The position numbers and the translations under genes are program-made. DNA of 64,000 nucleotides. It comes from Paramarasmius palmivorus (taxonomy: Eukaryota > Basidiomycota > Agaricomycetes > Agaricales > Marasmiaceae). A model generated the notes under the pieces. That model made no database searches. It saw only the letters and a program-made list of their open reading frames with translations, and had not been told where the DNA came from. Positions within the stretch are counted from its first letter, which is position 1. The number at the start of each line of letters is the position of its first letter. Below, piece by piece: positions 1 to 42,682 of the stretch. Where the stretch lies: contig JAYKXP010000079.1 in the NCBI GenBank assembly GCA_037176845.1, forward strand, positions 1 to 64,000. The letters run 5' to 3'.

Positions 1-249
1 AAGCCGAACGACTGGAAGAACGCGTTAATATCCAAGAAATGGGGCCATGGGCTCGGATTCTTTGGACCGAGCTCGTTGTGATTAATGATGACGCTCATGC
101 TGGCGCAAATCAGAATGATAAACCAATCATAAAATAGGATACATACCATCAAAGTAACGGATATGAACTTCACGGAAGACTCGGATAAGGACATAGCATG
201 TTTCGTTCCAAAGAACACGTTCGGCCTTCTTACGTGCACGGTGCGGATC
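1..249 (-). CDS. edge-truncated gene of unknown function (3' part continues off the window)
   Basis: Two exons can be read on the minus strand: 249-143 and 99-1, joined across a short intron (142-100, GT-AG, 43 bases). The exon at 249 follows a plausible acceptor (pyrimidine-rich tract ending TTACAG). The spliced frame is open for all 69 visible residues and reads like real protein, with KKAERVLWNETCYVLIRVFR near the beginning and NPSPWPHFLDINAFFQSFG at the end. The alternative reading of the first exon runs into stop codons after splicing, which decides the frame. I do not recognise the family. Upstream exons must lie between 250 and about 1000, but none could be chosen with confidence. Confidence 0.5.
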
Positions 250-1241
250 CTGTAACTGTGAAGGAGTATTGATATGCGACGTTGATCTTCAACAGCAAAA
301 GATATTGACGTACGTGACATGTATGACTTGACCAACGAGATCGAATCTCTGTCAGGGATGGAGGATGAGTCAAGCAAAAAAAAAAAAGGGTCTGTTACTC
401 ACCAGGATCCGTAGCTTTGGTGCGACTGTAGCCCACTTTCCTAATCGTGCTCGCCAAAGACGCCACTACCACGACTCTACGAGTTCTCCGTCGTTCTTCT
501 CTGTCTTGTGTTTCGGTGGACATCCTGGATGCCGATTGCAGGAACAAGGAGCGTAAACGCATGCCCTGCAGAGTTGCATTAATAATCGTGACAATACTTG
601 AAGAACGAGTAGCATGGTGCCATCTCGGTCTTCATAATTTTTGGGCGTACTTACATTGGAATTTCATTGATTTAAATACATTTTTCATACTAATTAACAT
701 GTACATTATCGACACTAATACATATGAGGCTAAGGAGGGGAGGGATAACATAGGGATGCGTAGGGACATAGGGATGATGGAGGTACAAGAGAAGGAGCAA
801 CCGGATTCAAAGTCCGCTCAGAGCGCTAACTTGTGTTGCGTGATTCAGTGTTGCCTGCGAGGGTCTGTGCTCACATGAGCACAGACCCTCGTACATGTGC
901 TCCTCATGCCTGCCTCAAGGCTCGGCCTTTCCGGATGGGTACGTAATTTTGGACTTTGCATCAAACCACAACGAGGCAGCGTCTACGACACTGCGGATAA
1001 TCTCTAAGGTAAATTACTTTCCTCCTCGTAGTATAGAGTACACTATCAATAGTATAAGACGAATAACAATGAAGGATATAAGATATACCGAAAAAAAATG
1101 AGATACGAGTTCGAGTTTAAACCTCCAAAATGAAGCTTCAAATACGCATGCTGAAGCCATGTTTTTTTATGCTAGGAATCCACAATACCCAGACGGAGAG
1201 ACGAATATACGGACAGCACCTTATGCATCGATTGTAATACG
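250..1241. other. about 1 kb with no gene that can be supported
   Basis: Contains an A-tract near 370-380, the perfect palindrome annotated at 858-891, and several short open frames without coding character. It probably holds the 5' exons of the minus-strand edge gene and the promoter of the Spt5-like gene that starts at 1242. Confidence 0.4.
858..891. repeat. perfect 16-bp inverted repeat (hairpin palindrome)
   Basis: The left arm 858-873 (CGAGGGTCTGTGCTCA) is the exact reverse complement of 876-891, with only two bases between the arms. It would form a 16-bp hairpin in DNA or RNA. It lies between the divergently oriented edge gene and the Spt5-like gene. No target-site duplication or partner copy was seen. 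Confidence 0.85.
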
Positions 1242-4200
1242 ATGGATTTTGAGGTTTCGACAACGACTACGATACACGAATGCAACGACGATGCTCTGAT
1301 CACAGTTGGGGCGATTCAAACAGGCCCTGGGATCCAAGATACAACAACTGAAGAGATAGAGACCACACGTTTTCAAGGGGCGCAAACGCCTGAGTATGTT
1401 GAAGGGGAAACCTTCACTTTCCAGTCCGCTTCGCCACGTCCATTTCGCCATATAGACGGGCCAATGACTGCGAAAACCCCCGAATTCATCACAAGCCCTA
1501 AACGCGTTGAAGATGGGCCTTCGTCAGCGAGTTATTCATTTCAGGATGTCGAGCTTTCCTCAAATACAGAGACGTGCTCCTCACCACGGTTTATCTCCTC
1601 TCATCCGCCGTCGCCTCCTGGTATCTGTGCTGCAGAGTCGACAGGAGAAGTATCGCCCACCCAAAGAACGTCGAAGAAGCGAAAGCGCAATAGGGGGGAT
1701 ATGGATGGTGTCTCGGGCTTCCTTGACCTGGAAGCAGAGGTCAGCCACGATGAAGAGGATGACGAGGGTGACGAGGATATGGGTATGTTCTGATAGTCTT
1801 ACACATTACTTATCCTAACTGTTTGGACAGATGGATTCATTGTTGGAGATGACGAGGACGCTAGTCCTTCTATCAACTATCACGCTATCACAACGAAGCT
1901 CAGACCAGACGAGGAAAGGATATCCAAGCCCAGCATACCATTCGTAGACTTTGGAAAGAAGAAACTCGACTCCAGGACTTACAATTACGTGGACAAAGTA
2001 ATGATGACACTCTATAACGAACCAAACAGCGAAGCTGCTGAACGCAGAGAGAAAACACGTCAAAAGCATGGGTTACAGTCAATATGGCTTGTGTATGTCC
2101 ACGTAAGTCATACCTTATAATAACTTCCATCCGAAACTGACCACCAATCAGTCCAAACGCCAGCGTGATGTCATATGTTGGTGGAAGGAATTCTGCAAAA
2201 CTTTTCGGACCAAGAGGCCAGCAGACTGCGATGTGACTCTCTATGCCAGGCGGCCGAAGGACAATTTCCTCTATGTGGAAACCCAAAATCCAGCTTTAAC
2301 CGCACTCGCTTTGAGCATGTGTCGGCATGTCGTTAGGAGTCCAACAGGCCTCAACGGCATCAAAATGGTACAGATGGACGTCTACGAGACACCTCTGTCC
2401 TTGCAGCTACTAATCGAACACTATCAAAGAGCTGCCCTCGAGCATTCAACTGGTAGCTGGGTGTGTTTATACACCAATCCACCTCACAAAGTCAGGAAAA
2501 ACGAATGTCGTTACACAACGCCTCCACCTCCTCCTTCAGAACTCCCAGACGCTACATGGTCAATATCAGAAGAGGAGTTAGCCACGAATGCTCCTCCTGA
2601 AGAGCCAATTGCTTGCAAGGACGAAACACGAGACGCCATCCCTCAACATACGCATTCCAAACACTCGATACCACCAGAGACACTCAAGCGATGCGATAGC
2701 TTGAGACACTATCATGGTGATGCCGCAATAGTGGTGTCATCTGGTTGCAAAGAGCTCACTGTTCTCCTCATTCCGCGTGTGCCAGTGAAGGCAATACAGA
2801 CCAGCGGTGCGTACCAAGTGAGCTTGCATGATGAGGTAGTGCAATGCTTGCATGATGTCGAGTCTCTATCCCGAGAGTTTTTGTCTACTTGCAGATACAA
2901 CGTCGATCATGGTCTTCGCGTAGAAGTTGTCTCTACCGAATTCGTCAAACCCCTCCATCGTCCTCTTACGCCACGGGAAGGCATGCTCTTCTATTCTTGC
3001 AGTCATCCTATCCTCACGGACCACTTCCCGCGTGTAGCTGGTTGGGACTTTCAAGTGGGCGAGCGTGTCGTAACCAGAATCTCTGGCATCTTGGGAGAGG
3101 TGGTAGCAGTGGAACAGGATGGTCTCTACACCGTAGACACGGATAACATACGAAGACATGTTGGCTGGGGTGTCCAGAAGTCTTGGAAGACCGGCGATTT
3201 GGTTCAGCACACGATTCATGGATGGGATGGGTTCGTGGTCGAGCAGAGTGAATTCCATGGTTGCGGACATCTTCAGACTCTCGTCCACACCAGGAACATC
3301 ATGGAGATTCAGAAAGGTTCTTGTACTCTGAAGGAAAAGGAACATATCCAGGTGTTGGTGGAGCCGAATTTTCTGGTTCGCTACACACCACCGCAGCGGA
3401 GCATATTCTCTCAATCCGTACCCAGCATTCCCTGGATGGAAGCTGCTGAGTATCAGACATCGTTTCTCAAAACCGATCCAAAGGATGTCCGACGTATCTT
3501 GGCGGAGAAACACCCCGAACTCCTCACTCCAGCGCAAATTGATCGAGAAGTTCGCAATGGCCATGTTCACAGTATTCCTTGGATGTTCAGAGAGGTCGAC
3601 GTCTTTTCTCGGGGATATAGAGGTAGAGCGCGGGTGACAGATGTCAGATATGGGTGCCAGACAGCAAGCGGTTTGATGATACAGGTGGAATGGATTGTGC
3701 AAGGGTCTGTCGGTGACAGGTTCGAAGTGGATTATGACTTCGTTCTTGACCTTGAGTATGTGCTTATCATAAGTGGTGTGTCGAAGATGACTGACTTCAT
3801 TCAGCTCGCAGATGCCCCTACATGTCGTCGAAGCAGCCCAGCCACCATTTGTAGTTCGCGTTGGATACTCTCATCCGAAATTCAATCCTCCAACATATTA
3901 CGGGTCTTCATCATCATCCCGTTACCTCCACGAACCCGATAGCCGGCTGCATTCCTCGTCTTGGGCTTGTGACATCGATAATGACCCTAGCGACGAGGAA
4001 ACCGGTAGCATTGCAGAGATGAGAGACCGTATCATGGGTCGCACGAGCTACAAGCACATAGCGATATCGGATGAATTGGTCATCGACAAGCCAGCAACAA
4101 GACCGATGCCGGTAGTAACTCCAGAAGACATCCAGAAGATGTTGAAGTTCCTAGAGTCACCAGTTAATGTGCGGTGTCGCCGAACGTGGTCCGATGATGC

Positions 4201-4732
4201 ACATCCAAGCCATCGTTGGCTTTATGAGCTTCAGGGGAAACCCGCCAGACTCCTGTTTTGGGTTAAACTCTTCGGTAAAGATGACCAGTTTCGCTATACA
4301 TTCAAAGGTCTCGAACGGACGGTCAAAGTGGGCTACACGGAACTCGGAGATCGCTGTATTTTCTATCGGCACGAAAAACAAGATCGCATTCTTCCCAATG
4401 CCATGCGAATCGAAATGCGGGGAATCGCTGTTCAGACGAAGAAGGCACTGTATGTGCTAAAGGGAGACCATGCCGGGGAATACGCTGTTCGCATTGCTAC
4501 TGTTCCTCGCAACTTGGCCAGTCAATCCGAAGCCATGTATGCGTGTTGCTCTGTCGACAGCGAAACTGGAGCTGTAGATGCGAATGTAGAGTATAAGTTG
4601 CGGGCTTCAGACGTGTGTCAGATAGAGCTTGAGAAGGAGGCTTTCACTCGCATGGACAAAGAGGCACAAGAGATCAAAGAAAAGAAAGGCGTTCAGCGCA
4701 ACCAGAAGAGACGGAAGACGACCGAGACTTAG
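1242..4732 (+). CDS. divergent Spt5-like transcription elongation factor (NGN and KOW-like segments)
   Basis: Four exons keep frame throughout: 1242-1782, 1831-2102, 2152-3755 and 3805-4732, with three introns of 48-49 bases, giving 1114 residues. Residues about 145-190 form a nuclear-type KRKR stretch followed by an acidic run (FLDLEAEV then D/E-rich), as in Spt5 N-termini. Residues about 262-355 (QSIWLVYVH onward) match the NGN fold in pattern: an opening Trp strand, then a cysteine-rich helix, then NFLYVET. KOW-like strands (a V-G-(E/D)-x-V pattern) occur near residues 571-600 and 617-640, and a third possible one near 756. True Spt5 binds Spt4 and RNA polymerase II in the nucleus. This copy is shorter in repeats and strongly diverged, so it is more likely an accessory paralogue than the housekeeping gene. 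The C-terminus is Lys/Arg-rich. An HDV-like RNA begins 122 bases after its stop. Confidence 0.75.
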
Positions 4733-4853
4733 ATTATCATATTGCTAATTATCGACGGTATTATGTATCTGTATTTTCTTAACTTACCTCGGATGTTTAT
4801 TATTACATTATAGATAGATCGCGCGTAATGATAAATCTTCTGAATACCTCGAA

Positions 4854-4927
4854 CCCTTGAAAGATGTCTGGCCTCTACGCGGCTCAAGGGACCAGTAACC
4901 GTCTTGACGGTGAAGCTAACAGACATC
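4854..4927 (+). ncRNA. HDV-like nested double-pseudoknot RNA (possible self-cleaving ribozyme), copy 1
   Basis: Pairings read directly: P1 CCCTTGA 4854-4860 with 4884-4890; P2 GATGTCTG 4863-4870 with 4920-4927; P3 GCC 4871-4873 with GGC 4881-4883 around a 7-nt loop TCTACGC; P4 ACCGT 4898-4902 with 4907-4911 around CTTG. The order P1, P2, P3 hairpin, P1', P4 hairpin, P2' is the hepatitis-delta ribozyme topology, including contiguous P2/P3 and P3/P1. The strand joining P4 to P2' reads GAAGCTAA; its GCnAA core matches J4/2, which carries the catalytic cytosine in that class. L3 also resembles the HDV loop. Odd: P1 begins with C, whereas known members usually begin with G, and P1.1 would be at most one or two weak pairs. 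It lies in the 3' flank of the Spt5-like gene, same strand. Confidence 0.72.
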
Positions 4928-5155
4928 ACTCTGCTGCCTGCAATCTTTGTTCGTATCTTTTCGTGCCTTTGACGTATTCTTGTGGTTTCATTTACGATTT
5001 TAGGTTTTTCATTATCAAGGCCGACATCACCACGAGTTAACTTCGAGGCTGAATTGTTTACATCACGGCCTTTAGGTTGCCATTCAGGGTGTTGGTGTAG
5101 GACATATTTAAACGACGCTTTTAGCAGACGGAACAGCCCGTCTACCCCCATATCA

Positions 5156-5774
5156 ATGGCAAACAGCGACACAGGTAATTGTATCAACTTATTCATCGAT
5201 ATTTACTCACCTTTTGAATACAGAAACCTCTCTCGTTGATATCGAAGGTGCCGACGCCGATACATCCATTGAAAGCAATGACACGATCCCCGAAACCAAA
5301 GGCCCCTTTCACCCATGGTTGCACCGGGAACGTGACTCTGCCAGAACGACAGACCCATTATTCTCAGATGGCACAGAGTTGTTGGGCAGAGTTGGTCGAG
5401 GAATTCGAGGTCAACACGTAGCTGTCGGTGGACGTGGCCGCGGGAATGTACCAGGTGGAATCACCGCTGTTATTCGCGGTACAGGTCTTGGTGGAAATCG
5501 TGGCACTGGCCGTGGTCATGGAGTCACCATTCCTGCTCGTGGAGCCCCCCCAATTCGTAGTCACCGAGGTAGCATGCCTGGTAGAGCTCAAGCTCACCAC
5601 CCCCATGGTGGAAGTCGTGGTGCTGGTCGTGGTCAAGGAGTTACCATTGCTAGTCGTGGAGCTCCCACTATTCGTAGTCACCGAGGCAAAAATCTCGGTC
5701 GAGGTGTCTCTGTCAACAGTAGGGGTACAGGGACTGGAAACAGAGGAAGGGGTAGAGGTAGAGGTGGAAACTAA
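5156..5774 (+). CDS. small Arg/Gly-rich (RGG-type) protein with an internal tandem duplication
   Basis: Exon 1 is 5156-5174 and exon 2 is 5224-5774, joined across a 49-base GT-AG intron (5175-5223), giving 189 residues. The ATG at 5156 is preferred because splicing it onto the long open frame preserves phase, whereas an internal ATG would lie in the intron. After an acidic first quarter, the rest is Gly/Arg-rich with RG and RGRG clusters, typical of RNA-binding or nucleolar RGG tails. A block of about 50 residues is duplicated: GVTIPARGAPPIRSHRG recurs as GVTIASRGAPTIRSHRG. No folded domain is visible. It sits 3' of the first HDV-like RNA, and a second copy of that RNA begins 149 bases after its stop, so the gene is bracketed by the pair. 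The function is inferred only from composition. Confidence 0.6.
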
Positions 5775-5922
5775 GCAATGTAGTCGTCCGATTCGAGTCC
5801 GTAGCTTCGACATCGTATCCTTTCTTGTGGCTTTGTAAGCTATGTTTGATGATTGCATCTTAATGCCGTTGAGCTATAAAAACATTGTGCGTTAAATATC
5901 TCGATGCTGAATACAAATCTAC

Positions 5923-5994
5923 CCCTTGAATATGTCTGGCCTCTTCGTGGCTCAAGGGATTAGTACCCGCTGTCGCGGGGAAGCCAACAGACAT
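5923..5994 (+). ncRNA. HDV-like nested double-pseudoknot RNA, copy 2
   Basis: Same architecture as the copy at 4854-4927: P1 CCCTTGA 5923-5929 with 5952-5958; P2 ATGTCTG 5932-5938 with 5988-5994; P3 GCC 5939-5941 with GGC 5949-5951 around TCTTCGT; P4 CCCGC 5966-5970 with GCGGG 5975-5979 around TGTC; J4/2 GAAGCCAA. P4 differs from copy 1 at three paired positions with pairing preserved (ACCGT/ACGGT versus CCCGC/GCGGG). Loops L3 and L4 and the N of GCnAA vary. That pattern indicates selection on structure rather than a chance repeat. It lies in the 3' flank of the RGG gene, same strand. Confidence 0.72.
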
Positions 5995-5999
5995 GTAAG

Positions 6000-7083
6000 C
6001 AACATTCATGGACCTTGGTCCAGGTCTCATTGCTACTTATACCCGTAAGCCCTCAAGATACATGCTAGGATCTCACTCACAAACGCTTTAGCTCCCATCG
6101 TGCCAAAGAATGTCGTTATTGCAAATGGTAATAGGTCCTGCATGTCTTTTCAACCTATGCCTCCGGTACGTTGATTTTAAACTGTTCTAAGGAAATAAAA
6201 CTAAACTAGCTTGATACAGTCATTCCAAGCCAGAGCTGAATACGCACGACCGAATCCTGGTTACCGCTCAAAAGAAATAGGCAGAGTCCAGCGGTGGCTG
6301 ATGAAGATATGACTTTGCCGGGTCCATGCGGCACGCTCTCCTCTACGCTTCGCACCTTGAAATCCTACAAAACAGGTCGTCTTGTGAGACCAAGGACTCA
6401 TCGTTGAGGGGTGCAACTTGCTCTCTGTCGTATACAAGAAATTGGCGCTAGAGTCGCAGAGAATCACCTCTTCGATCGAGCAAAAGAAGAGTAACAAGGC
6501 TCAGCTGAATTCGCTTCTTGGTGCCTAAATCCTGCGAAGACCTACTTTGCCGAGCTGACTGAGCGTTACGAAGGTCTGCAATTCCTCTTGCAACTACCGA
6601 GCAGCAGATCCTCATGAACTTCTATAGAGATGGTCAAAGACATGGAACATGTCGCCTCATCAGACCAGGAACATCGTTGAGGTGATCTGATCGAGCAGAA
6701 GGAACGGAGATCGACATGTACTACAAAAGATATCGAGTCCGAGCACGACGATATCCTCGACACCCTTGGCAAGCACCCCATTCATTCTGCTATATCAAAT
6801 GGGTCGAAGGTTGATGTGAGTGTGTATCTTGCAGCTCTAAGCCTACGTCCTAACTCGCCTGTCAGGTTGGATGACTTCCACCCGTACCGTGCCAAATTCG
6901 CCACTAGCAACAAGCGGAAGGCAGCATCGAAAGGGCATGAAGCTTACAGAGCTGTGTTTGATGCCACTGCCCCCAAGCCCCCTCCGAAAGACGTGCCTCG
7001 TCTTCTACTACGAGATACTCACCATCTCTCGCTCCTGCTCTACAATTTCCGCGGCATTCTTTATGTTCGCTCGTCGCTCTATT
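6000..7083. other. decayed repetitive region without a supportable gene
   Basis: No frame has coding character across this stretch. Segments near 6225-6490 and 6500-6720 resemble each other: both have an AGCTGAAT...AATCCTG start, then CATCGTTGAGG, then GATCGAGCA. This suggests an old tandem duplication of about 270 bases. An open frame from 6816 runs into the minisatellite and is not treated as a gene. Confidence 0.4.
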
Positions 7084-7510
7084 CGAAGTACAGATCATAT
7101 AATAGCATCAGGACCCTCGCACTCGCTATTGGTGCCACCAGATCAGACTTCCCGTTGCTGTATAGTCTCTTCAGCGCGGGCGGTATTCGTACCATTCGAA
7201 GTACAAGTCATATAATAGCATCACGACCTCCGCATTCGCTATCAGCGATATCCGAAGTGAATATCCCCCACTCAGCCCCGCTGTTGTATGGTCTCTTCCT
7301 ACCGAAGTATAGATCATATAATATCTTCACGACCTCCAATTCGTTATCCGCATTCACTGTCGATGCCACCAAATCAAACCTCCCCACTCCCCGTTGTAGT
7401 CCCTTCAGCGCGACCTGCCATTCGCACCGTTCGAAGTACAAGTCATATAATAGCATTACAACCTCCGCATTCGCTCTCTTCCTACCGAAGTACAGATCAT
7501 ATCAGAGCGT
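7084..7510 (+). repeat. degenerate minisatellite
   Basis: Five copies of a unit opening CGAAGTACARRTCATATAA start near 7084, 7198, 7302, 7432 and 7488. Spacings run from about 104 to 130 bases, and the last unit is only 56. Several units share a following ACGACCTCCGCATTCGCT-like segment. Open frames across it in several phases are a by-product of the repeat and do not look like protein. Confidence 0.7.
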
Positions 7511-8417
7511 CACGCGTATTTGCTACTTCACTACTCTACCGCCCAGGTGGCTGGTTCGACACGGAGTAGGGCTTCACTCGCTACGCCAAGAAGTACGCTA
7601 AAGATAGTCGTAACTCGCCTATGAACTAAGGGATGAGAATACCAAGCACGCTGAGGCTATTATTGCGACCTAGGATCACAGATTCAGAGTCGTTACTCGC
7701 CGATGGGGAATCAAGAGGATTCCTACGGGGACATGCGTGGGGACAACCATACCTCCACCACGACGATCTGCTACATCGCATGCTGCCTCGGAATAAACGC
7801 CACGGAATACACGCCTCGGGATACACGATCTATAGTTTACACTATTGCATTGGCGTGGGCGCTTTTGTATACTAGGTGCTTTGGCGCCGGGTTGAAACTC
7901 AAAGCGCCAAAAATGTCAAAGCGTCTCCTAGTCCCAAAGGTCGCGAGTCATTGTTGCACCCTGCAGAACTATGGTACCTCTTCTACGTTGAGGCTTATGT
8001 CGCTCATCGGTCTCGTCGGTGAGTATTTGTCCAAGTATCTTAACCCGCTATCTAATCTCTTTTTTCACGCAATCTAGCTACCACTTCTTATCCATCAAGT
8101 CCTTTCACCTCATTTCACCTTGTTTCTTGTTCTACCTACGACTGTGAGTGACCTTTGGCCTGCGTACATTCCTTTTTCTCACCCTTCTCACCCTTCTTTG
8201 TCCAGCCGTGCACTCTTCCAGCGTCGTCTCTATCAACGCGACTTCTTCTCATACGACGGTGAGTACTCATTTTTCTCGAGCATCCTCGTCAATTATCTTA
8301 TCTCTCTTCTATTTCTCGTACTCTAGCTCTCTTCGACCACTACAAACACGTCCACCTTCTTCCCAACTTCGACATTCCAACTTCATCTTCATCCTCCACC
8401 ACTCACTCTCGCTCCCA

Positions 8418-8919
8418 ATGGCAAGGTCAAGAGCGCTCCGCCACAAGATGAAGATGAAGCCCAGCAAAGCCGACAAACGCGGCTCGATTTACGTCTTGGA
8501 GAGGAAGGAAGGAACTGGGAGACTTTGGAAGGTTGGAAGGTCGAATTGTGTACCGAGGCGGGTGAAAGAGTGGAATAGGTTGTGTAAGGGGCATGGGTAC
8601 AAGCTGAGGGACTCTTGGGAGGTTCGTTGGGCTGGTAAAATGGGTGCGTATTCGTCTACTTACTCTTTTTTATCACGCTAACGCATAGTAGAGCGATGTG
8701 TTCACCTTGCGCTCATGGATCTTGGGTTTCGTCGTCTCATTTTTCGTTGCTCTGGGTGTAAGTTTTTTCTTATTTCTGTTTCTTATCGCTAATCCGCCTG
8801 TACCAACAGGCGGCAAACGACACAGGGAACTTTTTTGGAGTCCTTACAACGATAGTCGAACGATGGAGATTATTGGGGAGGTGATCAAGGGATTGGAGGA
8901 GGAGATGGGAGGAAATTGA
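8418..8919 (+). CDS. small T5orf172 / GIY-YIG-like domain protein
   Basis: Three exons: 8418-8643, 8692-8757 and 8810-8919 (introns of 48 and 52 bases) give 133 residues. The domain covers nearly the whole protein. A GSIYVLE strand comes first, then WKVGRS followed by RRVKEWNR, the arrangement of the GIY-YIG-related T5orf172 (MUG113-type) fold. Near the end comes RCSGCGKRHRELF, the Cys/His element typical of fungal members. The second and third exons only make sense in this frame; the other frame of exon 2 looks like a false membrane segment. Upstream, three intron-like stretches (about 8019-8078, 8141-8205 and 8261-8326) suggest spliced non-coding 5' exons. Their join would not keep frame with upstream ATGs, so the ATG at 8418 is chosen. 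Fungal members of this kind are usually uncharacterised; nuclease activity is not assured. Confidence 0.7.
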
Positions 8920-9164
8920 ACTTTGTTGTATTGGAACTGTATTGAAATTCAAGCAATTTTTTTAGTCTAGTCGCTCGCTCGTTACTACTACGTATAGTTT
9001 ACCGTGTATTGACGCCACACGAAATTTGTATCATATTCAAGTTGTATTACTCACAATGTATCGTATTACTTACAATGTATCGTATTAGCAGTACTGTAGC
9101 GTATATACATCTAAATTGTATTTCTACTCAGCAATAAACTACTCTGGACGTGTTCTCTTTGCGC

Positions 9165-9940
9165 TCAAAAGTTGTGGCTACGCCCTGCTAAACCTGCTTT
9201 GACCCAGGTCGAACCGGTTCGTGCTACCAGGTCCGGCTGAGCCGTTACCGTGAACCGGGTAGGTCCGTGCCCGCTCCGGACCGGCTTAGCTGGTGAGCCA
9301 GCCGAACCGTTGGCACCCCTACCCCGAAATGCCCATCCACAGCCACGGTACGTTGTTCGGCGATCTGCTGCGCTCTCATCAACAAATATCAGCTGCTGTG
9401 GTTGAAAATACCGCCCTATCTTGTAGATAAAGGCTCCACGGCGTTCTTCGTCACGTTCCATAGCTTGCTTTGTGATCTATCTGTATGTTTTGGAACCTAG
9501 CAGGCTGCAATGATTGTGTGGTAGACGTACCTTCTTCAGGGTAAGCCCACAACGCTTGAAAGTAGTCCATATGAGATAAATGGATGCTGAAACCCCACAC
9601 ACTGTCAATAGCTCCTTCTGCATATCTTCTAGTGTCATCCCATTCCGGTTGTGTACTAGATCTAATAGAAACTGAGATCTTCAGTTGGTATTGAGCACTG
9701 TGTAGCACAAGAGGGACAGCACACCTGTATTTCGTGTGATTTAAGCTTCCGATTCCGCCCTCTACGCAGCTTATGAGGTCTGACAACATCTCCAGTGGAC
9801 CAATAGAGCTTGAGAATCTGCCGTTGTGAGGATGCACTAACACCAGTCAAGGTGCATATTTCAGCCGGTGTCTTGAAGCAGAGAGCCATGCGAACAACAG
9901 TCCAACGAAGAGCTTCGGGAATGAGAATGCCTCGGGGCAT
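9165..9940 (-). mobile_element. truncated IS630/Tc1-like DDE transposase gene (relic)
   Basis: Read on the minus strand from the ATG at 9940, exons 9940-9725, 9671-9531 and 9476 onward keep frame. The N-terminus is a homeodomain-like helix-turn-helix (EALRWTVVRMA ... EICTLTGVSASSQRQILKLY), with a second helical DNA-binding segment in exon 2 (LLTVCGVSASIYLIW). Exon 3 enters the catalytic domain at LIFVDESAADRRTTYRG, which carries the first DDE aspartate as in agaricomycete IS630-family elements. About ten residues later the homology stops and is replaced by a GC-rich sequence (9165-9300). The remaining catalytic D and E/D are absent, so the element is dead. The GC-rich tail repeats CCGGTTC/GAACCGG motifs and is probably a different nested repeat. 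Confidence 0.75.
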
Positions 9941-12509: not shown

Positions 12510-14675
12510 ATGAACCTCGCAAACCTAATGAGCTTCGACCGCGCCCCAAAGAAATACCACCAAGCTCTCCTCATCGCTCGCCTCATCCCTCACGATTCAC
12601 AATCCAAACCCTTCTACCGCTGCATCGCCGGTCTAAACCACCCATGGTGCTACGGTCGCGTCCCACTCGGCGCAACACGTCGTTTTTTCGCCTTGATCAA
12701 GAACCCAGACAACGCAGCCATCATCCGAGATGAGATTCGTCGTGCGCACGGAAAATACGGTCGACAAGGGGAAGAACCAAAGGTCCCTGAAATGGCGTTC
12801 CCGTATACACAGCTGTTGCTCACGCAGGCGTTCTTTTTGGATGTTGATGATCCGAGGGGACATTATGCTAGCGGAGGAGGGATGGAGCACGCGGTGCTTG
12901 ATCCTAATGTTGGGTGTTTTTGGTATTGGGGTGAGTTGTTCACGCGTTGATTTGAATGGGCTAAGCTGATGGTTTTTTGGATAGACACTAGTGACGAGGG
13001 GATAACGATCTTTGATATCACCGACCCTCTGAATCCAGCATATGGACATGCGTTTGATGATTCACCGTTTGTGCATGATGCGGAGTACTATGTACGAGCG
13101 TACTATGGAGAAAACTGCGGTGGCGATAGGATGACTGAGATTGACGTTCAGTGTCATCTCGACGTGTTGAAGCATGAACGCGTTCTTTCGTCTGAAGTTG
13201 TGGCGACAGTATGGCCTGATAGGTTTCGTACTTGGGAAAGTGCTGCTGTCAAGGAATCGAGGAACGATGAACCGTTCACGATGACACTTCTTCCTCAGCT
13301 GCCTTCACTTCAAAACCTTGTGTTGCGCCAGGTCGTCGAGCAGAGCACGGACGATGACTGTGATGAATATCTTGGAGATATTGCTGCCGCTCTCTCGAGT
13401 TCTAGTCTCCCAGATCCTGCGCAAAAGGCGCTGGTTCACGTCCTTCGACGAGAACTCGAGACGAACCCTGGTATCCTCGACCTGTCTGCACCGCGTTGTA
13501 CCTTGTCCAGCGACGCTATACGCGCAATAATCCCATCGCTACCTTCAGACGTCGTCAAAGCAATCAACCTATCTGGCATGCACACTCTCAACGTCCAACT
13601 CATCATCGACATCCTCAAAGCCTTTCCGCATCTTATCCGTCTCACACTTCTTGACACCAACATCTCCAACGAGGAGATCATGTACCTTTTATCCAGTCAA
13701 CCCAAACTCTTCTTCCGTTTGCACGACCTCATCCACCCCGCTCTCCTCACACGCTCCCCTCCTTCCCGCTCCTCTGCATCCTTCCCAAATAACCTCCTAC
13801 TCCCCAACCCCCTCCCCATCATGTCCTCGCTGCGCACGCTCCATGCCCAACACACTTCGTCCCCGTTAAGCTTCACGATCCTCCAAACAGACCGTTCAAA
13901 GTACTTCGGTGCCACACGCGGACACTGTATTGCCTCTATCTCATTCTTCCATCCCGAGAAAGTGTTACGGGGGTTAACAAAGTACCTTAAAGGTCTTCGA
14001 GTGGATATCCAATCAAAGATGTTCCCAGATAAATATATCGATGGGCAAGTTGGACCTTTGATGGCACTTTCCGCTTCTACACCCCTGTCTTCTTCACCTG
14101 ACACGACGCAAGCGATGAAGGGCTTCCCAGATGACAGAGAAGAGAGGCTGAGGTGGATGGGAAGGGGTGTTGGGATGGTTCCCATCAAGGGTACATACGG
14201 TGAGAGTGCGAAGGGATGGACGTTCGTGTTGGACTATGTCCCGCCGATAAGCTTGGCTAGTATCCATCTTGGGATGAAATACGCTGGGTATGGGTTTATT
14301 AAAGTTGATGTGGATACGGAAGGGGCGCGTGAGAGAGAGAGGTTGGTTTGGGAGTTGATGCAAACTGAGGTCGTTCCCAAGCCTTCTGACTCCGAACCCG
14401 AGATGAAGAAGGACGCAGCGGATATTGAGGAAAAGCTTGCAACGATGACTAGCAAGACGGTGAAGGTGTATGATATACGCGAGTTTGTGGAGGCTGTGGT
14501 TAAGGAAGGCAGGCCAAAGCCGAGTGAAGAGGTGATTAAAGCGTTTGAGGAAGCGATCAGTCCGAGTCCGTTGGGCCCGGTGTTGTTGTCGAGAGCGTTG
14601 AAGAAGATGACAGTGGAGGAGGTGAAGGGAGTCGTTCCGGGTTTGGGCATGGACGAACCAGACAACTCCGTCTAG
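12510..14675 (+). CDS. conserved agaricomycete-type protein of unknown function with an LRR-like core
   Basis: Two exons, 12510-12930 and 12985-14675, joined across a 54-base intron with phase kept (the Trp-Tyr-Trp end joins to DTSDEGITIFD), give 703 residues. Residues about 15-140 form a Cys/Trp-rich N-terminal region (FYRCIAGLNHPWCYG, then FFLDVDDPRGHYASGGG). Residues about 300-390 look like leucine-rich repeats (ILDLSAPRCTLSSDAI, INLSGMHTLNVQLIIDIL, LIRLTLLDTNISNEEI). The C-terminal third is helical and charged, ending in LGMDEPDNSV. No signal peptide or membrane segment is seen. A frameshifted paralogue lies at 23671-25647, and 5' fragments lie upstream of two NACHT genes (28526-28681 and 35640-35860). 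I know no function for this family; the repeated association with NACHT genes is the only contextual clue. Confidence 0.8.
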
Positions 14676-15190
14676 AATGTGTTGACATGTTCTCAAAGTT
14701 GCATCGGAATCAATTGTTGTACGGCGATATTGCTCACTACTTCTGTTTCATGAACAATTGAACAAAGTTGTAAGTTATAATCTACACGCGGTCTGAACCC
14801 TTGCAATAGATACAAAGCTCGGGTTCGCACTGGCATGCGACCCAACTCTTGGTTGGGGTGAGTGCTAGAATGGGTTGGGTCCCCTGACTCAACGATGCTC
14901 CTGACGATGGCCTCCCGAAATCGCTACTTGAAACCTCCAAGAATCATGTTGATGCGGATGAAACATAGCCAATGTAAGTAGAGTGGTAGCCATATCCATT
15001 GGATGCCGGGCGTTGATACCTGCGCGCTCATGATTAGCTATCTCGAATGTTTATAGAGATACATAGACTCACCGAGCAGCCAGTGCTCTTGAAATCACTA
15101 CACTACCAAAACTCCCAAAAGAACCAGCGCATTGTCTTTGCGGCGTGTTTTCTTGGTTGATGTAAAGACCAAACCGCCTTGAAGGAATGG
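14676..15190. other. intergenic stretch, no gene seen
   Basis: Downstream region of the LRR-like gene. It holds a weak inverted repeat (GACCCAAC near 14838 and GTTGGGTC near 14873) but no open frame of coding quality. Confidence 0.4.
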
Positions 15191-15199
15191 CTTCTTCCA

Positions 15200-16165
15200 A
15201 AGGTCAAGCCCTTAAGCGTGCATCTTGTCTGGGTTCTTGAAGACGAGCAGCTGGTATATGACACAGTCAGAACCATCATTTCCTGTAAAGACATAAGAGT
15301 TGAACGCACCATATACATCCACATCCGCCGTTTTTCGTGCGCAACATTCGTTTTTGTTGTATCTCGAACTGCGAAGAGCAATACGACCATTAGTAACTGT
15401 TCCTCGAGCATCGAGCTTCAGGTACTCACACAATTGTTTAGCCCTTGCCTTCTACCCATACTTTGAGCACCAAATTCCCCTTCCGAGTTGTGTACATCGG
15501 CGACAAAAACGCGCTGAGCCGTATCGCGAGCAAAGGTTCTGCATGAAAGCCAGGTTCTTGGGAGAAGGGTCGTGCAGTGTTGGTGGTACTGTACCCAAAA
15601 AAAGTTCTGTTGCAAGTACTTCCGAGTGAAGATGCTGCGCAGGACTGGTATCGCTTGTTCATCCCTGTACCGTCATTGTTAGCTGCTGTTGTAAACACCA
15701 CTCTTCCAACGATAGACTCACCCAGAGTTCCTCCTACTTCTCAGAGCCCAACAACCTCGTAAAGTCGGCAGTATGTTGAATGTTCTCTTGCCGCTAGGTT
15801 CGAATGGTGACGGTGCTGGTGCGTCGTCCTTTTATACCTGCACCATTATTGTCAGCTGGCTTGAATGTTCGTGCCTCGGCTTTACGGCCAATGATAGACT
15901 CACCCAACATTCCCTTTATTTTCGTAGAACTAGCAGCTTCTAAATTGTGGTACCGTCTTCGCTGTGTGCTCCCATAGTGACAGTCTGCACCTTTCCAATG
16001 TTTTTGTTCGAGTCGAGTTCGTGTTTGAGTCGTCCTTGGGGACTATTAGTGACCGGTATTTCACCCAAAATCCCAATAGAACATACCAAAATTCTTTCGT
16101 GTATTTCCTGGCGAAGGTCGAAATACCAGATGAACAGAAGGTGACGGTCGAGAAACAAGAATATC
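15200..16165 (-). pseudogene. minus-strand relic of the same unidentified family as 10.2-12.0 kb
   Basis: Reading from 16165 down: a segment with QEIHERIL followed by a GTATGT donor and an intron-like stretch ending TAATAG; then segments with GTGAGTCTATC donors at about 15902 and 15723; then the piece ending TADVDVYGAFNSYVF at about 15300. The frames change between pieces and stops interrupt, so a working protein cannot be assembled. Similarity to 11085-11940 is at the nucleotide level and in intron positions. It is arranged as an inverted partner of that copy around the LRR-like gene. Confidence 0.45.
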
Positions 16166-16734
16166 GCGCTTACCTCAGGCGCCCACTCCTCTCCGCAAGT
16201 CTACCACTACCTTTAACTCTTGCACCGGAGCCAGCTTGACATTGGTACGATAACAGCCATTTACAACCTCATCTGCCTCAACGACCAGCTCCTACTTATC
16301 GCCTCCCCTAAACGATTCGCCACCTCGAGGTTGAAGCCGACCTTCTACGGTAACCGCGAGTATAGTGGAGAGATGGGTGTCTGAGGTGCTGGAGTCCTCT
16401 CGTCCGCCTTGATAACCCGTAACCGCTGCCTTTCACCCGACTCCTTCGTCGCATACCCACACCATGCACTTCCTCCTCAAACCTCCAATACCCACCGTAC
16501 ACCGTATCCACCTTAGATATTCATCCCTGACCCCAGGCCTCCTCCTGAAACGGCATACCGAATGGCCATCGAGGAGTTTATATCAACGCGCAAGCCAGCT
16601 TAACGTGAAAGAAGGGCATGGACCTAGCTATAGGGCGGTTAGATTTGACTATGGTACAAATGCAACGGGGCTCAGGACCGTACATCTTTCTCCTTTTCCC
16701 AGTATACCACCCTTTTACGGACTCCTCGCTTTGG

Positions 16735-17740
16735 TAACTTCCTCTCGTAGCCTCAGCGGAATCCAGGAAGGACGACTGGACATTTGAGAACGTTTGTGCT
16801 ATTGAACACGGGCACGAGTTTGGGCCTGGAGACGCAAGAAACGGTCAGGATCAAGCTTCTCTAGCGATGATGGGTAGCGTACCGTAGTCTGCTTTTCTCG
16901 CCTTGCTCCTTCTTTCTGAGTGTTCCACCTTGGTCTTGGGTGTCCTTAAGACGCAGTAGTCAACGAGTTATCCGTGAACCTGCCTTTTGAGTACTCACCT
17001 CAGCTTGATTCGTCAAATTATCCCAGCTCTTCGCTCCTGCGACATGGTACCGCTTTACGCAGCTGTGAGCACCCAAAATTGACACCACCGGTACACCAAC
17101 ACTGTCGTTCCTTCCAAACCTGCGACCACCAAACAGAGTAAATCCCACCGAAAGGCTTGAAGCGTACAGTCGAGCGAGGATCGGAACCTCAAGCAGGCGT
17201 GCCAACGTGTTGAATCGTGCGTTGGAGGCTTGGGGCTTGGAACTCGGGTTTGATCTTCAAACTTCAACCAAGAACGAGTAGGTATGAATCAGGTAGGTAT
17301 TTAAGCATGTATCAAGTTGAATTCGGAATCGGGGGTAGTGGTTCTGCTGTATATATGTTGATTTTTAGCTAACGGTGAAGTGGTGGAAAATGGAAAAACG
17401 ACGAACCATTGTTACGCCCACCCGACTGTCTGGTCCGTCCCTTGCTCATTGTTACCATAGTTTCGAGCTGAAAACAAATTCTCCGGGGAGGGAAAAGCAG
17501 AGCAGAGGACGGAGGACGGAGGATGAGGAGAAGGTGTAGACTCGGAAGTCGGGAAATGACTAGTCCCATAGTTGCGTCCATCCCATAGCTCCTTCCCAAG
17601 ACTGAACGACCAGAATTATTGAATTTTCCTTTCACTATGATTCGTTACAGCGCAAGGGGGAAGTAAAGCCTTCAAAGGAGGTGATGGTGTCGGAAGAAGA
17701 GCAGAATGGGGTACATAAGCACCTAGTCTCCCCTAGGCAG
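16735..17740 (+). repeat. direct repeat R1, copy 1 (about 1.0 kb, non-coding)
   Basis: Aligns over most of its length, with small indels, to 25825-26850 in the same orientation. Shared landmarks include CTTCCTCTCGTAGCCTCA at the start, GATCAAGCTTCTC, GTCCTTAAGACG, GGTAGTGGTTCTGC/GGTATTGGTTTCTGC, CTGCTGTATATATGTT and a terminal GTACATAAGC box. No coding frame is conserved between the copies, so it behaves as non-coding or long-dead sequence. Confidence 0.75.
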
Positions 17741-17759
17741 ACTCGATATCGCTCGACGG

Positions 17760-18740
17760 CTCGCTTGATATGAGTCTGCTAGCAATCGCGGTCCCTTACC
17801 CGTTGCCTCCCTAGAGTTTTCCGCGAATCCGTATATAGAAATAAGATAAATCATGTGATGTAAAATTTTCGCCTGAGGCTTTGTTGACTTCGTTCAACAA
17901 CCACCGCGTTGATCATTACCATGCTTCAATAATGGACTATCCTTTTGCATAACACATTCCTGCGACCCCTTCAAGCCTGCGACCCGTTTCAATCAGATTT
18001 CGACCGTCTGTTAGAAGCCCCATTAAAACAGCCGACAATACTTTCTATCCAATTAATATATCCAGAATTCGACGTTCTCGCAGTCCAAATATCAAGCCAA
18101 AAGCACAAAGTATCGTCTCGTCATTGCCATCACTCGCTCAAAGTCAGCGCTACTCTGATGATAGTAGCATCGACGCAGATACAGTGTTATCCGCTTTGCG
18201 AGTTGGCGAGTTCGACAGAAGATTATGGTAATACCAAACAGTTGAAGGATCCAGCGGGATTCAGGGAATTCACGGGCAGTGTTGAGGCTGGAATTGATAA
18301 CAGTGGTGGTAAAACAGATTTCTGGGCGTACACTAGGCGTTGACGAACCGCGCCTGACTCGAGCATCTCAGATGACATCAGGATGATCCTTGCTGTCCTG
18401 ACTTTTCCCAAAGTACGTTGATGTTCTGATTGTGTGTTATTGGGAATTCAACTGTAGTATGTCCTGTTGGTCGAGGAATTAAGCTGCAACTTCAATGCTG
18501 AAGTCACAAGGAGTGAAAGGAAGGTCTGGATCTTTCATTGCAGCTTCGAGAAGAATCCAGTGCCCTTCAGGAGAGTTATAGGGGATTTTGGGGCGGGCTG
18601 GTCCTGGTGCGACCATGAAAACGCGTGAAGTCAGCCAAACGCGTCAAATTTGTTATCTAGAGTACCGGTCTTATCAACTGATAATCACATCATTGTGCTA
18701 GTCATGTGACATATATTTCGGGCAACGGGTTCGGACCGCG
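17760..18740. other. no supportable gene
   Basis: A 132-codon open frame at 17945-18343 (+) lacks any recognisable motif or splice context and is not called. Nothing else stands out. Confidence 0.35.
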
Positions 18741-18889
18741 AAAAAAAGCAGACTACATAAGCACCTGTTCACGGCTTGCATCGTTACCAGCACCACCATC
18801 GAAGCTGGAGGAGCTTGAACCATGCACTCTGGACAAGGTACGTCCTGGAATCTGCTATGAGGTGATACAATACTGATATCCCGTATAGT

Positions 18890-19075
18890 ATGACTGTAGG
18901 ATACAAATATCGACGATATGTCACCGTCGACTATCACTCGACCTCTAGGCTTGCACGCCAAGACAGCCTGCAGTGTACCATGAGTGGACGCAGAAAACTT
19001 CTACGGCAACGAGAATGGGACATTGATATCGTTCAGAAGCTGAAAGTGCTATATCGGAAGCCTTTCCATCTTTGA
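18890..19075 (+). CDS. possible small gene convergent with the first NACHT gene
   Basis: A 61-codon frame starts just after an intron-like stretch (GTACGT at about 18838 to TATAG at 18889). Upstream is a promoter-like CTACATAAGCACC box at 18753. The protein is basic (SGRRKLLRQREWDIDIVQKL) and unrecognised. The argument for reality is that the same arrangement recurs: the box, the exon and the GGTAYG donor are also seen near 26.82-26.93 kb beside the truncated NACHT copy. The part equivalent to GGGACATTGATATCGT recurs at about 32630 beside the second NACHT gene. It could equally be a non-coding transcript. Confidence 0.3.
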   Translation: MTVGYKYRRYVTVDYHSTSRLARQDSLQCTMSGRRKLLRQREWDIDIVQKLKVLYRKPFHL

Positions 19076-19262
19076 CGAGCTGTGCGTATGTACGTGTGGA
19101 TGGCAATCATTGAACAATTTCTGACCGTTGTATTCAGAGAATGCTACAGTAGAGGATAAGGAATGTGGGTAGTATCAGGCCAAACAGCAAATGGAATACA
19201 TCGCCACGGTGTTTTTATCATTGGGAGCGTCCAGCGGGTCCGAGTCCATGCCCTTCTTGGCC

Positions 19263-21974
19263 TCAGTGACTGATGGGAGTTTCCGCAACTGTGGTTCACA
19301 TAGGATCAGTAACCGCCGCCGCCTCTACTGCCAAAACTCACCCAGTATTCGCTTGACGTGTATTCCAGCTTTGTTCTCTTCCGTTGTTTCTGCGCCGACT
19401 AAAGTAGCCACTTCGTCCACCACGTTGGTGTCCTCATCGACTAGAACTTCACCTGCCAGACGGTACAAGTTGTCTATCTCTCCCAAACATTCAACTCTGC
19501 AGACCGGGATCAATGATGGTGTACATGTAGACGTTTCCAAACCGAGCACCTGGCGGCGTTCTGCTACCAACATTTTGAGGGTATAGAAGTCCTGTTTCTG
19601 TTCCGTAGTTCAGTGCTAGAATAGAAGATACTATTCGTGACAATTACCTTTGCTAGGTCGAGATGGCATACACTATCATCTGTATCATTCTCGATATCAT
19701 TGACGAGCCTTTCTGTGATACAGTCTCTCAGAGAGACTAGCAACCTATCGATAGCCTCTGCCTTCTCTCGGCGAATAGTGAAGACCGACCAAGACGGAGG
19801 CAACTTTTGATCAGCTGGGAGCACACAGTACTTACCCGGCGAGTCTCCAGGGTAGGGGACACAGACATAATAAAGTTCCCCACTTGGAGCCTTGTTATAG
19901 CTCGTCCAGGGATGATCCTCGCCGTAACCAAAGAACTTACACCACTTGTGGCTCCGAGGCTCAGTACTGTATAGGAGGTTTTCAACGCTCGTTATGATGT
20001 GAATAAAATCTGAAGCCGATGCGCTGGGCGATGCGACACAGAAGCTGCACAAAAAGGTCTTCATTTTATCAAGAAACATCATCGGAGGAGAATCTAAGGA
20101 CTATTGGGTATCTTGTTAGTTATAGTGCACCGGAATACAAAATGTCCTCACCTCTGCCCACACCACGGCACGTTTGAACTCTACAAGGCTTGGAGTATAT
20201 CCAGATGACGATAACAGCAGTGATGCAAAAAAAAATGGGTCAAACCGGTCCAAGGCTGCCAATAGTGAATCGCTGGGTGACTCTACAGCGAGCACTAGAT
20301 CAAACACTCGATCTAGTCGAAGTCTTGTGTCCATGAAATACCACGTTGATCGCGGGATAGGTGTGGAAATGTTCTGGTAACGTTCTTGGGACTTGATCAC
20401 AATAGCGCGGAAGAATGCCTGGGCTACTAGATCCAGGTACTGTGATTCACTTAATTCTTTTGCGAGATAAACTCCGGAACGCGAGGGATCCAAGAGGAAC
20501 TCTGTGAAAGAAGCATGGTGGATCCACACCGTGTTTCTATTGTCATCGGGCACCTCTATAACGGCATGCAATTTGAATAACAGACTTTCCAATTTGCCAG
20601 TGTTGAACCCAAGAAGTGCTGCAATGTGTTTTGTAGAGCGTAGGATGGAAGTTTTCTCGTCATGCTGCTCTGGAGTGCGCGAGATCCTACGTTCCCATTT
20701 TTCCGATTCGACGAGTGGTGTGACAGTGCTAGGGGTGACAAGAAGGCGTAGAACCTTTCGAACGTCATCCCAATGGGGACATGTCGATAAGATTTGGCGA
20801 TAAAGGAGATCCAAGTCAGGATATGGCGACTCGGGAAGGTCATCTGCCCGGATACGAAGAATATCTTCTAGGCGCTTTGTTGGATCATCATCGTCACTCT
20901 CGAGGTACTTCATGACGGTGGCAGCGAAAATGAATTGTCCACAGGCTCTCTCAACAAGTTTCCGTATCACATCTTCACCGGGCCACGAGACGTCGATGTG
21001 ACGCAGCGCGTGGTGCCTGTCCTGTAACTGCGTGAACCGATGATGGAAATATGTGGCTATATCTCGTGTAACCTCTCCAATAGCCAGAGAGTGCAGAAGG
21101 GACGTGAGGGAGTCTTGCTCGAATGCTCGACAGATACGGGGCTCTGGACGACTGGCAACAAGAAACATTAGACGACATCGTGGTATGGCCTCGCATATCA
21201 TCGCGATGAGTCTTTCCTGGGAAGGTATCAAGACGCACTCATCAAGCCCATCGATGACTAGCACATTCGGAAGAATGAGCCATGCCTCAGGTTCGACATT
21301 CAAGCACGGCCCGAGGATCAGTTTCCGGAACTGATCCTCAAATGAAAGTCGGAATACTCCCGGGGTCGAGCGAATGGTTTCGGTGATCAATGGGCCAAGT
21401 ACCTCGCGGAGAGGTTCCGAGGTGAGGAACTGGTAGACGATGGTGGCGACAAAAGGGTCCAGTTTGTCTCGGGTGGAATCATTGCGAGAGAAGAAAAAGC
21501 TTGCAGCAAAGCGATGGCCCATATTCTTTCCCGCTCGATTCCTCTGGCAGACATGCCACGGTAACAGTGTTCCTACTAACAGTTTCCCTTTGCAAGCGTG
21601 GTTCTCGCACACATTCTGCATTACTGCAGACTTTCCAACCCCTGCTCGCCCATGAATCCAAAATATTGGCCGAGTCGATGGCTGTTCCTTGATCCATCTA
21701 CGGCACTTTGCAAGTATCTTGGCACGAGTTCCGGGAAGACAGTTGGGAGGTGGACATCGTTGTTCGGAGTTGTGAAGTGCGTTTAGAGCGGCATGTTCTG
21801 CGACGGACTTGAGGACTTCATTGACTAGGTGAAGTGTTAGTAGACGAATCTAAGATCAAAATCACACCAACCTGACGAGTCCAAATTGTACGTTGGGTTA
21901 TTGATTTGATCCCCATAAACGACATTGTGTGCACCGCCGGTTATGGAGACACCTTGGCTATAGTTGAATGCCAT
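19263..21974 (-). CDS. NACHT-domain NTPase (fungal STAND/NLR-like), copy 1
   Basis: Five exons: 21974-21872, 21824-20152, 20100-19648, 19591-19342 and 19288-19263, giving 834 residues. The first exon encodes a short N-terminal motif (GGAHNVVYGDQINN). After a linker ending PPPNCLPGTRAKIL comes the Walker A motif GRAGVGKSA (about residues 93-101); Walker B is LVIDGLDEC (about 223-231), followed by a sensor-like LVASRPEPRI. The region to about 590 is the helical NACHT-associated part (HHRFTQLQDRHHALRHIDVSWPGEDV). Exon 3 carries the family block PPSWSVFTI. The acidic C-terminus has no WD40, ankyrin or TPR repeats. An ATG further in would drop Walker A, so the start at 21974 is chosen. STAND proteins of this class act as ligand-gated switches in fungal self/non-self responses; that role is inferred from the family. 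Confidence 0.8.
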
Positions 21975-22274: not shown

Positions 22275-22335
22275 GTCATGGATGCGGTGTACTCCTTGAT
22301 AAACGCTGTGTTCAATGAATGAACATGATTGACAG
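22275..22335 (-). promoter_or_regulatory. duplicated NACHT upstream segment
   Basis: Starts about 300 bases upstream of the NACHT copy 1 start codon. The 60-base stretch (GGATGCGGTGTACTCCTTGA core) recurs at about 28233-28300 upstream of the truncated NACHT copy, so the flank was duplicated with the gene. No defined protein-binding site can be named. Confidence 0.45.
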
Positions 22336-42660: not shown

Positions 42661-42682
42661 ATAGACTAGAGGGGTATCATAG

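Follow-up and report, generated by a model that had tools for sequence, protein, structure and literature searches.

Predicted HDV-like ribozymes in hAT-type and PlavakaB-type transposons of Paramarasmius palmivorus, most of them following Spt5-like or RGG-repeat genes

Ribozymes of the hepatitis delta virus (HDV)-like class, also called delta-like or drz, fold into a nested double pseudoknot in which P2, P3 and P1' are contiguous and a cytosine of J4/2 stands before P2'. In mobile elements, the accessible parts of the sources place them in retrotransposons, such as the non-LTR (long terminal repeat) elements R2, L1Tc and ingi, where they sit at the element 5' end and cleavage frees the RNA intermediate (PMC3774820, PMC4035085). 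Fungal variants of the class comprise 230 examples in 26 species with varied gene neighbours, and cleavage in vitro is reported for those whose first pair is C-G; the section of the article on these variants names no transposon (Li and Breaker 2017, PMC5640933). In addition, TET/JBP cargo moves between hAT, Plavaka and further DNA transposon groups of fungi, according to the accessible text of PMC12730594, in whose main text the words 'ribozyme' and 'Spt5' are both absent. The present analysis concerns two putative HDV-like ribozymes, a and b, in the first 64,000 nucleotides (the window) of contig JAYKXP010000079.1 of the basidiomycete Paramarasmius palmivorus (GCA_037176845.1), where they follow an Spt5-like gene and an RGG-repeat gene in a large hAT-type DNA transposon. 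Contigs of this 68.3-Mb, 393-contig assembly are designated by C-numbers, the window being C79 positions 1-64000, and all family counts come from this one genome.

The two motifs and their relatives share the fold, the contiguous helices and the J4/2 cytosine of the class, but differ in a C-G first pair, a weak or shifted P1.1 and the lack of an Rfam HDV match. They resemble the variants of Li and Breaker, as far as these are described in the available text, in their fungal host, C-G first pair and varied gene neighbours, whereas the loop-E P4 and the extra P2/P3 base of those variants (PMC5640933) are absent from the 26 copies aligned here. In these copies a simple 5-bp hairpin closed by 3-4 nt forms P4 (shorter in one copy), and a candidate for an extra base between P2 and P3 was seen only in the unaligned C3 copy. 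Like R2, L1Tc and ingi, the ribozymes lie within mobile elements, and the C3 copy stands upstream of LINE-like (long interspersed nuclear element-like) open reading frames (ORFs); unlike what the accessible sources describe for those elements, most copies belong to DNA transposons bounded by terminal inverted repeats, where they follow cargo genes instead of marking the 5' end of the element. With the TET/JBP system, in the text available, they have in common one cargo family in several unrelated transposon lineages, the cargo here being Spt5-like and accompanied by a ribozyme. No literature joining ribozymes with Plavaka, or Plavaka with Spt5, was found in a search that covered few subscription journals and preprints, and in the accessible text of the sources no HDV or self-cleaving ribozyme was recognisable as part of hAT, DNA or terminal-inverted-repeat transposons. 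HDV-like ribozymes in cut-and-paste transposons beside an Spt5-like gene were thus not found in the literature searched, and would represent a new home, possibly a new job, for this class.

Nested double pseudoknots and their family in the genome

Ribozyme a occupies 4854-4926 of the window on the + strand, with predicted cleavage at 4853/4854. It consists of P1 (4854-4860/4884-4890), P2 (4864-4870/4920-4926), P3 (4871-4873/4881-4883) and P4 (4898-4902/4907-4911), connected by J1/2 (4861-4863), L3 (4874-4880), J1/4 (4891-4897) and J4/2 (4912-4919), and the catalytic-position C within J4/2 is 4916. Ribozyme b occupies 5923-5994 on the same strand, with predicted cleavage at 5922/5923; it is built of P1 (5923-5929/5952-5958), P2 (5932-5938/5988-5994), P3 (5939-5941/5949-5951) and P4 (5966-5970/5975-5979), with J1/2 at 5930-5931, L3 at 5942-5948, J1/4 at 5959-5965 and J4/2 at 5980-5987, which includes the catalytic-position C at 5984. 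Both motifs have a 7-bp P1 (CCCTTGA/TCAAGGG), a 7-bp P2 (ATGTCTG/CAGACAT), a 3-bp P3 (GCC/GGC), a 7-nt L3 and a 5-bp P4. In this L3, U and G stand at their HDV-class positions. The motifs had been proposed in a sequence-only reading, and its structural description holds: the helices are complete in the HDV order, P2/P3/P1' are contiguous, J4/2 reads GAAGC(T/C)AA, P1 starts with C in both motifs, and the P4 differences between the two copies preserve pairing. It is confirmed that motifs a and b form the HDV-type nested double pseudoknot.

A strict topology scan of both strands of the window, with P1 of 7, P2 of 6-7, P3 of 3 and P4 of at least 4 bp and a C required as the fourth base 5' of P2', returned motifs a and b only, and the same scan on 60 dinucleotide shuffles gave a mean of 0.17 matches (maximum 3). 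A looser scan, in which P4 and the C were not required, returned several chance matches as well. The HDV covariance-model check that had been proposed was negative: Rfam gave no family match anywhere in the window at the gathering score and no HDV family in the region 4600-6200 at E<=10, relaxed thresholds likewise giving none, but this search was run without a known fungal HDV ribozyme as positive control and weighs little.

DNA searches with the two motifs matched 25 and 24 places in the genome, 27 combined. A core pattern with free P1 revealed two divergent copies, C3:173714 and C2:162553, which score 41.6 and 66.8 bits, respectively, with a P2/P3/P4 model built without them; the family therefore amounts to at least 29 copies, 27 found at the DNA level plus the two divergent ones. 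The C2 copy (L029:4924-4995, minus strand) is solitary and has the J4/2 GAAACCAA. The C3 copy (L028:4960-5082, minus strand; about C3:173660-173781) is the most divergent and has a long J1/2. With one mismatch allowed, the core pattern matched 60 genome places versus 38 for a reversed control, and three places picked by eye, in C3, C2 and C66, were followed beyond the known copies. C66:150469 (L030) was rejected because neither P1 nor P2 is convincing there and the model does not match it; C6:1136780 (L042), whose letters are J4/2-like, was also discarded since P1 and P2 are absent. A further pattern, YAGTA..GAAGCNAA, was uninformative (429 places versus 579 for its control), and in viral contigs the ribozyme core pattern had no match. 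The copies do not count as independent events because several are near-identical, as in the sets C79, C145, C167 and C106, C45, C179.

Genome-wide covariation supports the fold. The four-helix alignment comprised 19 of the 29 copies in 17 distinct rows, namely 18 copies with a 2-nt J1/2 plus C2; eight copies with a 3-nt J1/2, C114 and C3 were left out, and the degenerate C114 copy was omitted from all covariation alignments. Standard pairs make up 98.4% of the 370 pair cells in the distinct rows, and two-sided changes are found at 13 of 22 pairs. On four of five measures no shuffle out of 500 reached the observed value; on the remaining one, further pair types, 2 did. Sliding the partner by 1-3 columns as a control lowered pairing to 26.8-43.8%. 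An alignment of P2, P3 and P4 over 26 copies, 23 of them distinct, shows pairing in 97.7% of 341 cells and two-sided changes at 8 of 15 pairs, with four measures reached in 0 of 500 shuffles and further pair types in 22 of 500. P3 is without any two-sided change. Individual copies show helices that differ and still pair: P1 of C87:119342 (CTCCCGA/TCGGGAG), P2 of C246 (CAGTCTG/CAGACTG), the last P2 pair of C9:854619 and C250:39782 (A-T in place of G-C), and P2 of C2, which is wholly different (GCGTTCG/TGAACGC). The HDV-class assignment survives this genome-wide covariation together with the re-paired P1 of C87:119342 and P2 of C2:162553.

The letters of the core are conserved as well. The first P1 pair is C-G in 16 of the 17 distinct four-helix rows. 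Among 28 parsed copies the first U of L3 is kept in 28, the L3 G in 27 and the J4/2 C in 28, in a parse that itself presets part of the L3 and J1/4 letters and requires the J4/2 C; a separate listing has this C in 27/27 DNA-level copies. Over 15 of the 29 copies (21 within-group and 40 between-group comparisons), mean identity inside the ribozyme is 0.83-0.89 between diverged elements, and that of the 75-base flanks is 0.57-0.66 (single pairs of flanks up to 0.83), compared with 0.57-0.61 for shuffled letters. Among the Spt5-like proteins, that of C246 has only 25-27% identity with three from hAT-type elements and 30% with the C31 protein. Since ribozyme identity far exceeds that of the flanks and the Spt5-like proteins have diverged, the RNA must be under strong constraint.

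Host transposons and cargo genes

The ribozymes are inherited parts of large DNA transposons, of hAT type here and of PlavakaB type elsewhere, a setting that the sequence-only reading had missed. The contig starts within a large hAT-type element, so that window positions 1-9321 hold its right part and lack the transposase side. Its right terminal inverted repeat, at 9302-9321 on the minus strand, reads inward TAGGGGTGCCAACGGTTCGG. The ends were identified from the break point between C79 and C145, which are 99.8% identical up to window 9321, and a genome search for this end allowing at most three mismatches gave 17+17 places, versus 1+1 for the reversed pattern. The C87 element (C87:109470-123870, 14,401 bp) has both ends and an exact 8-bp target duplication, ACTCTTTG, and that of C167 (C167:42418-65627, 23,210 bp) has both ends and an identical 8-bp duplication, CTTGGTAT, so that hAT domain, terminal inverted repeats and 8-bp duplication occur together in C87 and C167. 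C145:24045-45612 contains the hAT domain and both ends, but its flanks carry no matching duplication; it was rejected as a simple insertion and has probably been rearranged. In this C145 element the Spt5-like gene and ribozyme a occur a second time, in tandem (C145:35348); the likeness of this unit to the other ends about 10 nt past the ribozyme. The C79 and C114 elements each lack one end. An exact 11-mer search for terminal repeats in C87, C9 and C250 gave none useful.

hAT dimerisation domains were found at 34 places in the genome, and six of these belong to the ribozyme loci C87, C114, C167, C250, C145 and C9, the gene beside the C9 copy terminating in such a domain (E 9.3e-9), and the transposase genes of all six are transcribed away from the Spt5-like gene. 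A third ribozyme, c, was found in C87, C9 and C250, and thus up to three ribozymes occur per element.

A second set of hosts, C106, C45 and C179, with C7 and C24 assigned by sequence, has the end CATCACACAAA(T/A)(A/G)GGCAGRTGG, for which the control gave 0 matches. Both ends (CATCA..TGATG) are present in C106:2450-13661, C45:219293-230544 and C179:9069-15350, with 2-bp duplications of CA, AT and CT, respectively, and a divergent ORF has a Plavaka transposase domain in C45 (E 3.2e-15) and in C31 (E 4.7e-8). PlavakaB elements are defined by CATCA..TGATG ends and 2-3 bp duplications in the accessible text of PMC12730594; such ends and duplications are found in C106, C45 and C179 and the domain in C45, while C31 is assigned by its Plavaka domain. 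C246 and C270 have the Spt5-like gene type in common. Altogether, the six elements for which both ends were found contain 11 ribozymes, and the contig-cut elements of C79 and C114 another three.

The setting of the C3 copy is LINE-like and suggests a possible ancestral context of the ribozyme family. Downstream of the copy, in its orientation, follow ORFs of 482 and 824 aa. The longer one, which runs beyond the fetched piece, matches an endonuclease (EN) domain (E 8.6e-10) and, below the Pfam cut-off, part of a reverse transcriptase (RT) domain (E 2.8e-4). Since this is a single genome copy, the ribozyme could not be fixed as the 5' end of a LINE.

The gene before ribozyme a extends over 1176-4732 (+ strand), with main open stretches 1176-1793, 2107-3942 and 3791-4732 and approximate exon limits; a candidate database entry is 'hypothetical protein VNI00_014245' (1114 aa). 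Sequence profiles and a structural model support the view that it belongs, with its distant relatives, to an Spt5-like family. A 9-sequence profile searched against PDB had 5xon_W as its sole match at E<=1 (E 0.003). The best Foldseek matches of an AlphaFold2 model, with E from 4.1e-14, are chains from elongation complexes of RNA polymerase II (Pol II), which often have DSIF or Spt4/5 in their titles; the chains are taken as Spt5 from titles and chain names, and NusG is among the further matches. These likenesses contrast with 10-15% identity over ranks 1-25, low TM-scores of 0.09-0.16 by query, and a mean pLDDT (predicted local distance difference test) of 49, for which reason the model counts as weak. 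The Spt5-like label given in the sequence-only reading therefore stands on the profile and Foldseek searches, whereas the Spt5-NGN domain stays below the Pfam cut-off in three of four database members (E 0.035, 0.027 and 0.0054). A candidate for the canonical Spt5 of the host was located apart from these loci, at C49:78423 (KOW1_SPT5, 55.6 bits), and no ribozyme occurs there among the motif and core-pattern matches genome-wide. A Spt5-like protein of another genus, P0008 (Marasmius oreades E1B28_000007), is 41% identical; it is numbered 000007 on a 6-Mb contig, and a chromosome end is perhaps near. P0011, a 486-aa protein on a JGI metagenome contig of 7153 bp, is 66% identical to the hAT-type Spt5-like protein.

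Between the two ribozymes lies the RGG-repeat gene, a stop-to-stop ORF at 5112-5774 (+ strand) with a probable start at 5156 and a short first exon, both placed by eye; 5214-5774 has no Pfam match, and the protein is judged by its sequence to be of RNA-binding type. Ribozyme pairs about 1 kb apart flank the RGG gene on one strand in C79, C145, C87, C296, C9 and C250, and C167 is a seventh such locus, with an insert in addition.

Position relative to genes and readings of function

The siting of a and b in the 3' flanks of protein genes extends to most of the family. In the window, 121 and 148 bases lie between the stops and the motifs, in agreement with the 122 and 149 given originally, because the latter count to the first base of the motif. 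With the preceding gene picked by homology among overlapping ORF ends, 15/29 copies start 51-121 nt past an Spt5-like stop and 7/29 start 107-148 nt past an RGG stop, in both cases on the same strand; together, 22 of the 29 copies are separated from such a stop by 51-148 nt. A cut-and-paste transposon has no RNA intermediate, so a ribozyme under selection there must do something other than what is described for retrotransposons, most simply the shaping of messages. On balance, it is considered probable, from this arrangement in the sequence, that co-transcriptional self-cleavage makes the 3' ends of the cargo messages and separates the tandem cargo genes. Pol II would transcribe the element, and the RNA would fold and cut itself at 4853/4854 and 5922/5923, so that the Spt5-like and RGG messages would end about 120-150 nt past their stops with a 2',3'-cyclic phosphate and without a poly(A) tail from farther downstream, and the released downstream RNA would have a 5'-OH and the ribozyme at its start. 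Chiefly, neighbouring genes packed into one element would be kept apart and read-through curbed without reliance on the 3' processing of the host; cargo expression would also be lowered or timed. Catalysis with a C-G first pair is plausible by analogy with the fungal HDV variants.

Several observations weigh against 3'-end formation as a general role. Seven of the 29 copies (C87c, C9c, C250c, C7, C114, C2 and C3) have no such stop before them. Ribozyme c (C87:119342, C9:860679, C250:32946) lies upstream of the hAT transposase gene in the transposase orientation, with no recognised gene before it, and is therefore at odds with a pure 3'-end role; the C7, C114, C2 and C3 copies do not fit it either, those of C7 and C114 being at broken genes. 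Some of the 15 Spt5-like genes, in C296, C106, C179 and C24, are broken or fragments, so not every copy is now able to serve a working gene. Furthermore, 15 other Spt5-like loci are without a known ribozyme, and none was found in the 3' flanks of the eight that were read (C11, C53, C76, C176, C68, C157, C105 and C169; C240, C307, C92, C393, C316, C23 and C241 were left out), which means that an Spt5-like gene can do without it. The weakness of P1.1 was borne out, the canonical two-pair form being present in 0/28 parsed copies and a single pair in 28/28. All 28 could form a shifted pairing, CU/AG, between L3 and J1/4, but this never varies and is therefore unproven, the parser itself presetting part of L3 and J1/4. 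Finally, the letters of P1 and P2 vary less than their pairing would allow, a hint that more than cleavage is involved.

Ribozyme c and the LINE-like copy are better explained by 5'-end processing as in R2 and L1Tc/ingi, in which the ribozyme would make the 5' end of the RGG or transposase RNA, and the downstream RNA, uncapped, would begin with the ribozyme fold, which would protect it or serve as the starting point of its translation. The probable RGG start lies about 230 nt past the end of ribozyme a, and in C9 the probable transposase start lies about 290 nt past that of ribozyme c (both starts by eye). The C3 copy precedes its EN/RT ORFs in their orientation, which resembles a LINE, and R2 provides the precedent in the accessible text of PMC3774820. 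The distance to the downstream gene varies, however, the next Pfam-matched ORF after ribozyme b starting only at 8148, whereas the distance to the preceding stop is tight in 22/29 copies; 5'-end processing is thus considered rather unlikely as the principal role, and it may operate concurrently in some copies. Less probable still is self-restraint with feedback: most cargo messages would be lost to ribozyme cleavage, and by changing polymerase speed or binding the ribozyme the Spt5-like or RGG protein would tune this loss. The identity of the cargo as read from sequence, namely an Spt5-like protein and an RGG protein of RNA-binding type, and the P1/P2 letters conserved beyond pairing would agree with such feedback, and Leishmania mRNAs with such elements in the 3' untranslated region are reported to be down-regulated (PMC4035085, in its accessible part); the Spt5-like loci without a ribozyme speak against it.

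The strong letter conservation and the weak P1.1 might also be expected of a structured protein-binding site that has kept the HDV shape and no longer cuts. This is quite improbable, as binding needs no catalytic C and the J4/2 C is present in 27/27 DNA-level copies, along with the L3 G in 27/28 parsed ones. The ribozyme pairs around the RGG gene, in six loci and C167, invite the notion of a unit-length or circular RGG RNA freed between ribozymes a and b in a retrozyme-like manner; at other loci only one copy is seen, beside the Spt5-like gene, and the chance of this is very small. Cleavage that forms the 3' ends of cargo messages could, in a broader and rather speculative proposal, be part of a transposon-borne transcription circuit, in which the Spt5-like factor, together with the RGG protein, governs whether and how fast Pol II outruns the ribozymes. 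Two unrelated superfamilies carrying an Spt5-like factor and gene-end ribozymes would then set their own 3' ends and expression, with a module perhaps derived from a LINE 5' ribozyme and moved between transposon lineages like the TET/JBP cargo. The occurrence of ribozyme and Spt5-like gene in two superfamilies would link self-cleaving RNA to transcription elongation control in a way that is directly testable.

Further features of the loci

A conserved 3' segment follows the Spt5-like genes of C11, C53, C76, C176, C68 and C157 (L034-L039), about 130-200 nt along the pieces in gene sense, and begins CACCCCTTGTGGGTGTCTGG, as the ribozyme does. As an HDV ribozyme it was rejected, with model scores of at most 9.2 bits, no Rfam HDV match, and a loose fit in the topology scan in two of the six only, so that the HDV fold is inconsistent among them; the segment is possibly a derived or different structured RNA. 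Beside the C2 copy, an ORF on the opposite strand matches ERG4/ICMT-type methyltransferases.

Inside the hAT-type element of the window, an ORF at 8148-8681 (+ strand) has a T5orf172 domain (E 8.9e-5), presumably of GIY-YIG type, and part of this region is similar in the C87 element too. Elements of 483-485 bp with the same hAT ends, resembling miniature inverted-repeat transposable elements and likely non-autonomous, occur at C33:26780-27262, C52:288371-288853, C59:313644-314128 and C102:165667-166149. A retroelement with reverse transcriptase RNase H and integrase zinc-binding domains (L012:2-645, minus strand), at the edge of the fetched C87 region, adjoins the C87 hAT element. Elsewhere in the window, 20734-41110 and 12558-25635 contain diverged direct repeats (300-nt blocks, 70-78%) and long inverted repeats of 361-363 nt (74-75%), perhaps gene-family duplications, and further repeat blocks lie at 42609-46992 and 54787-62675.

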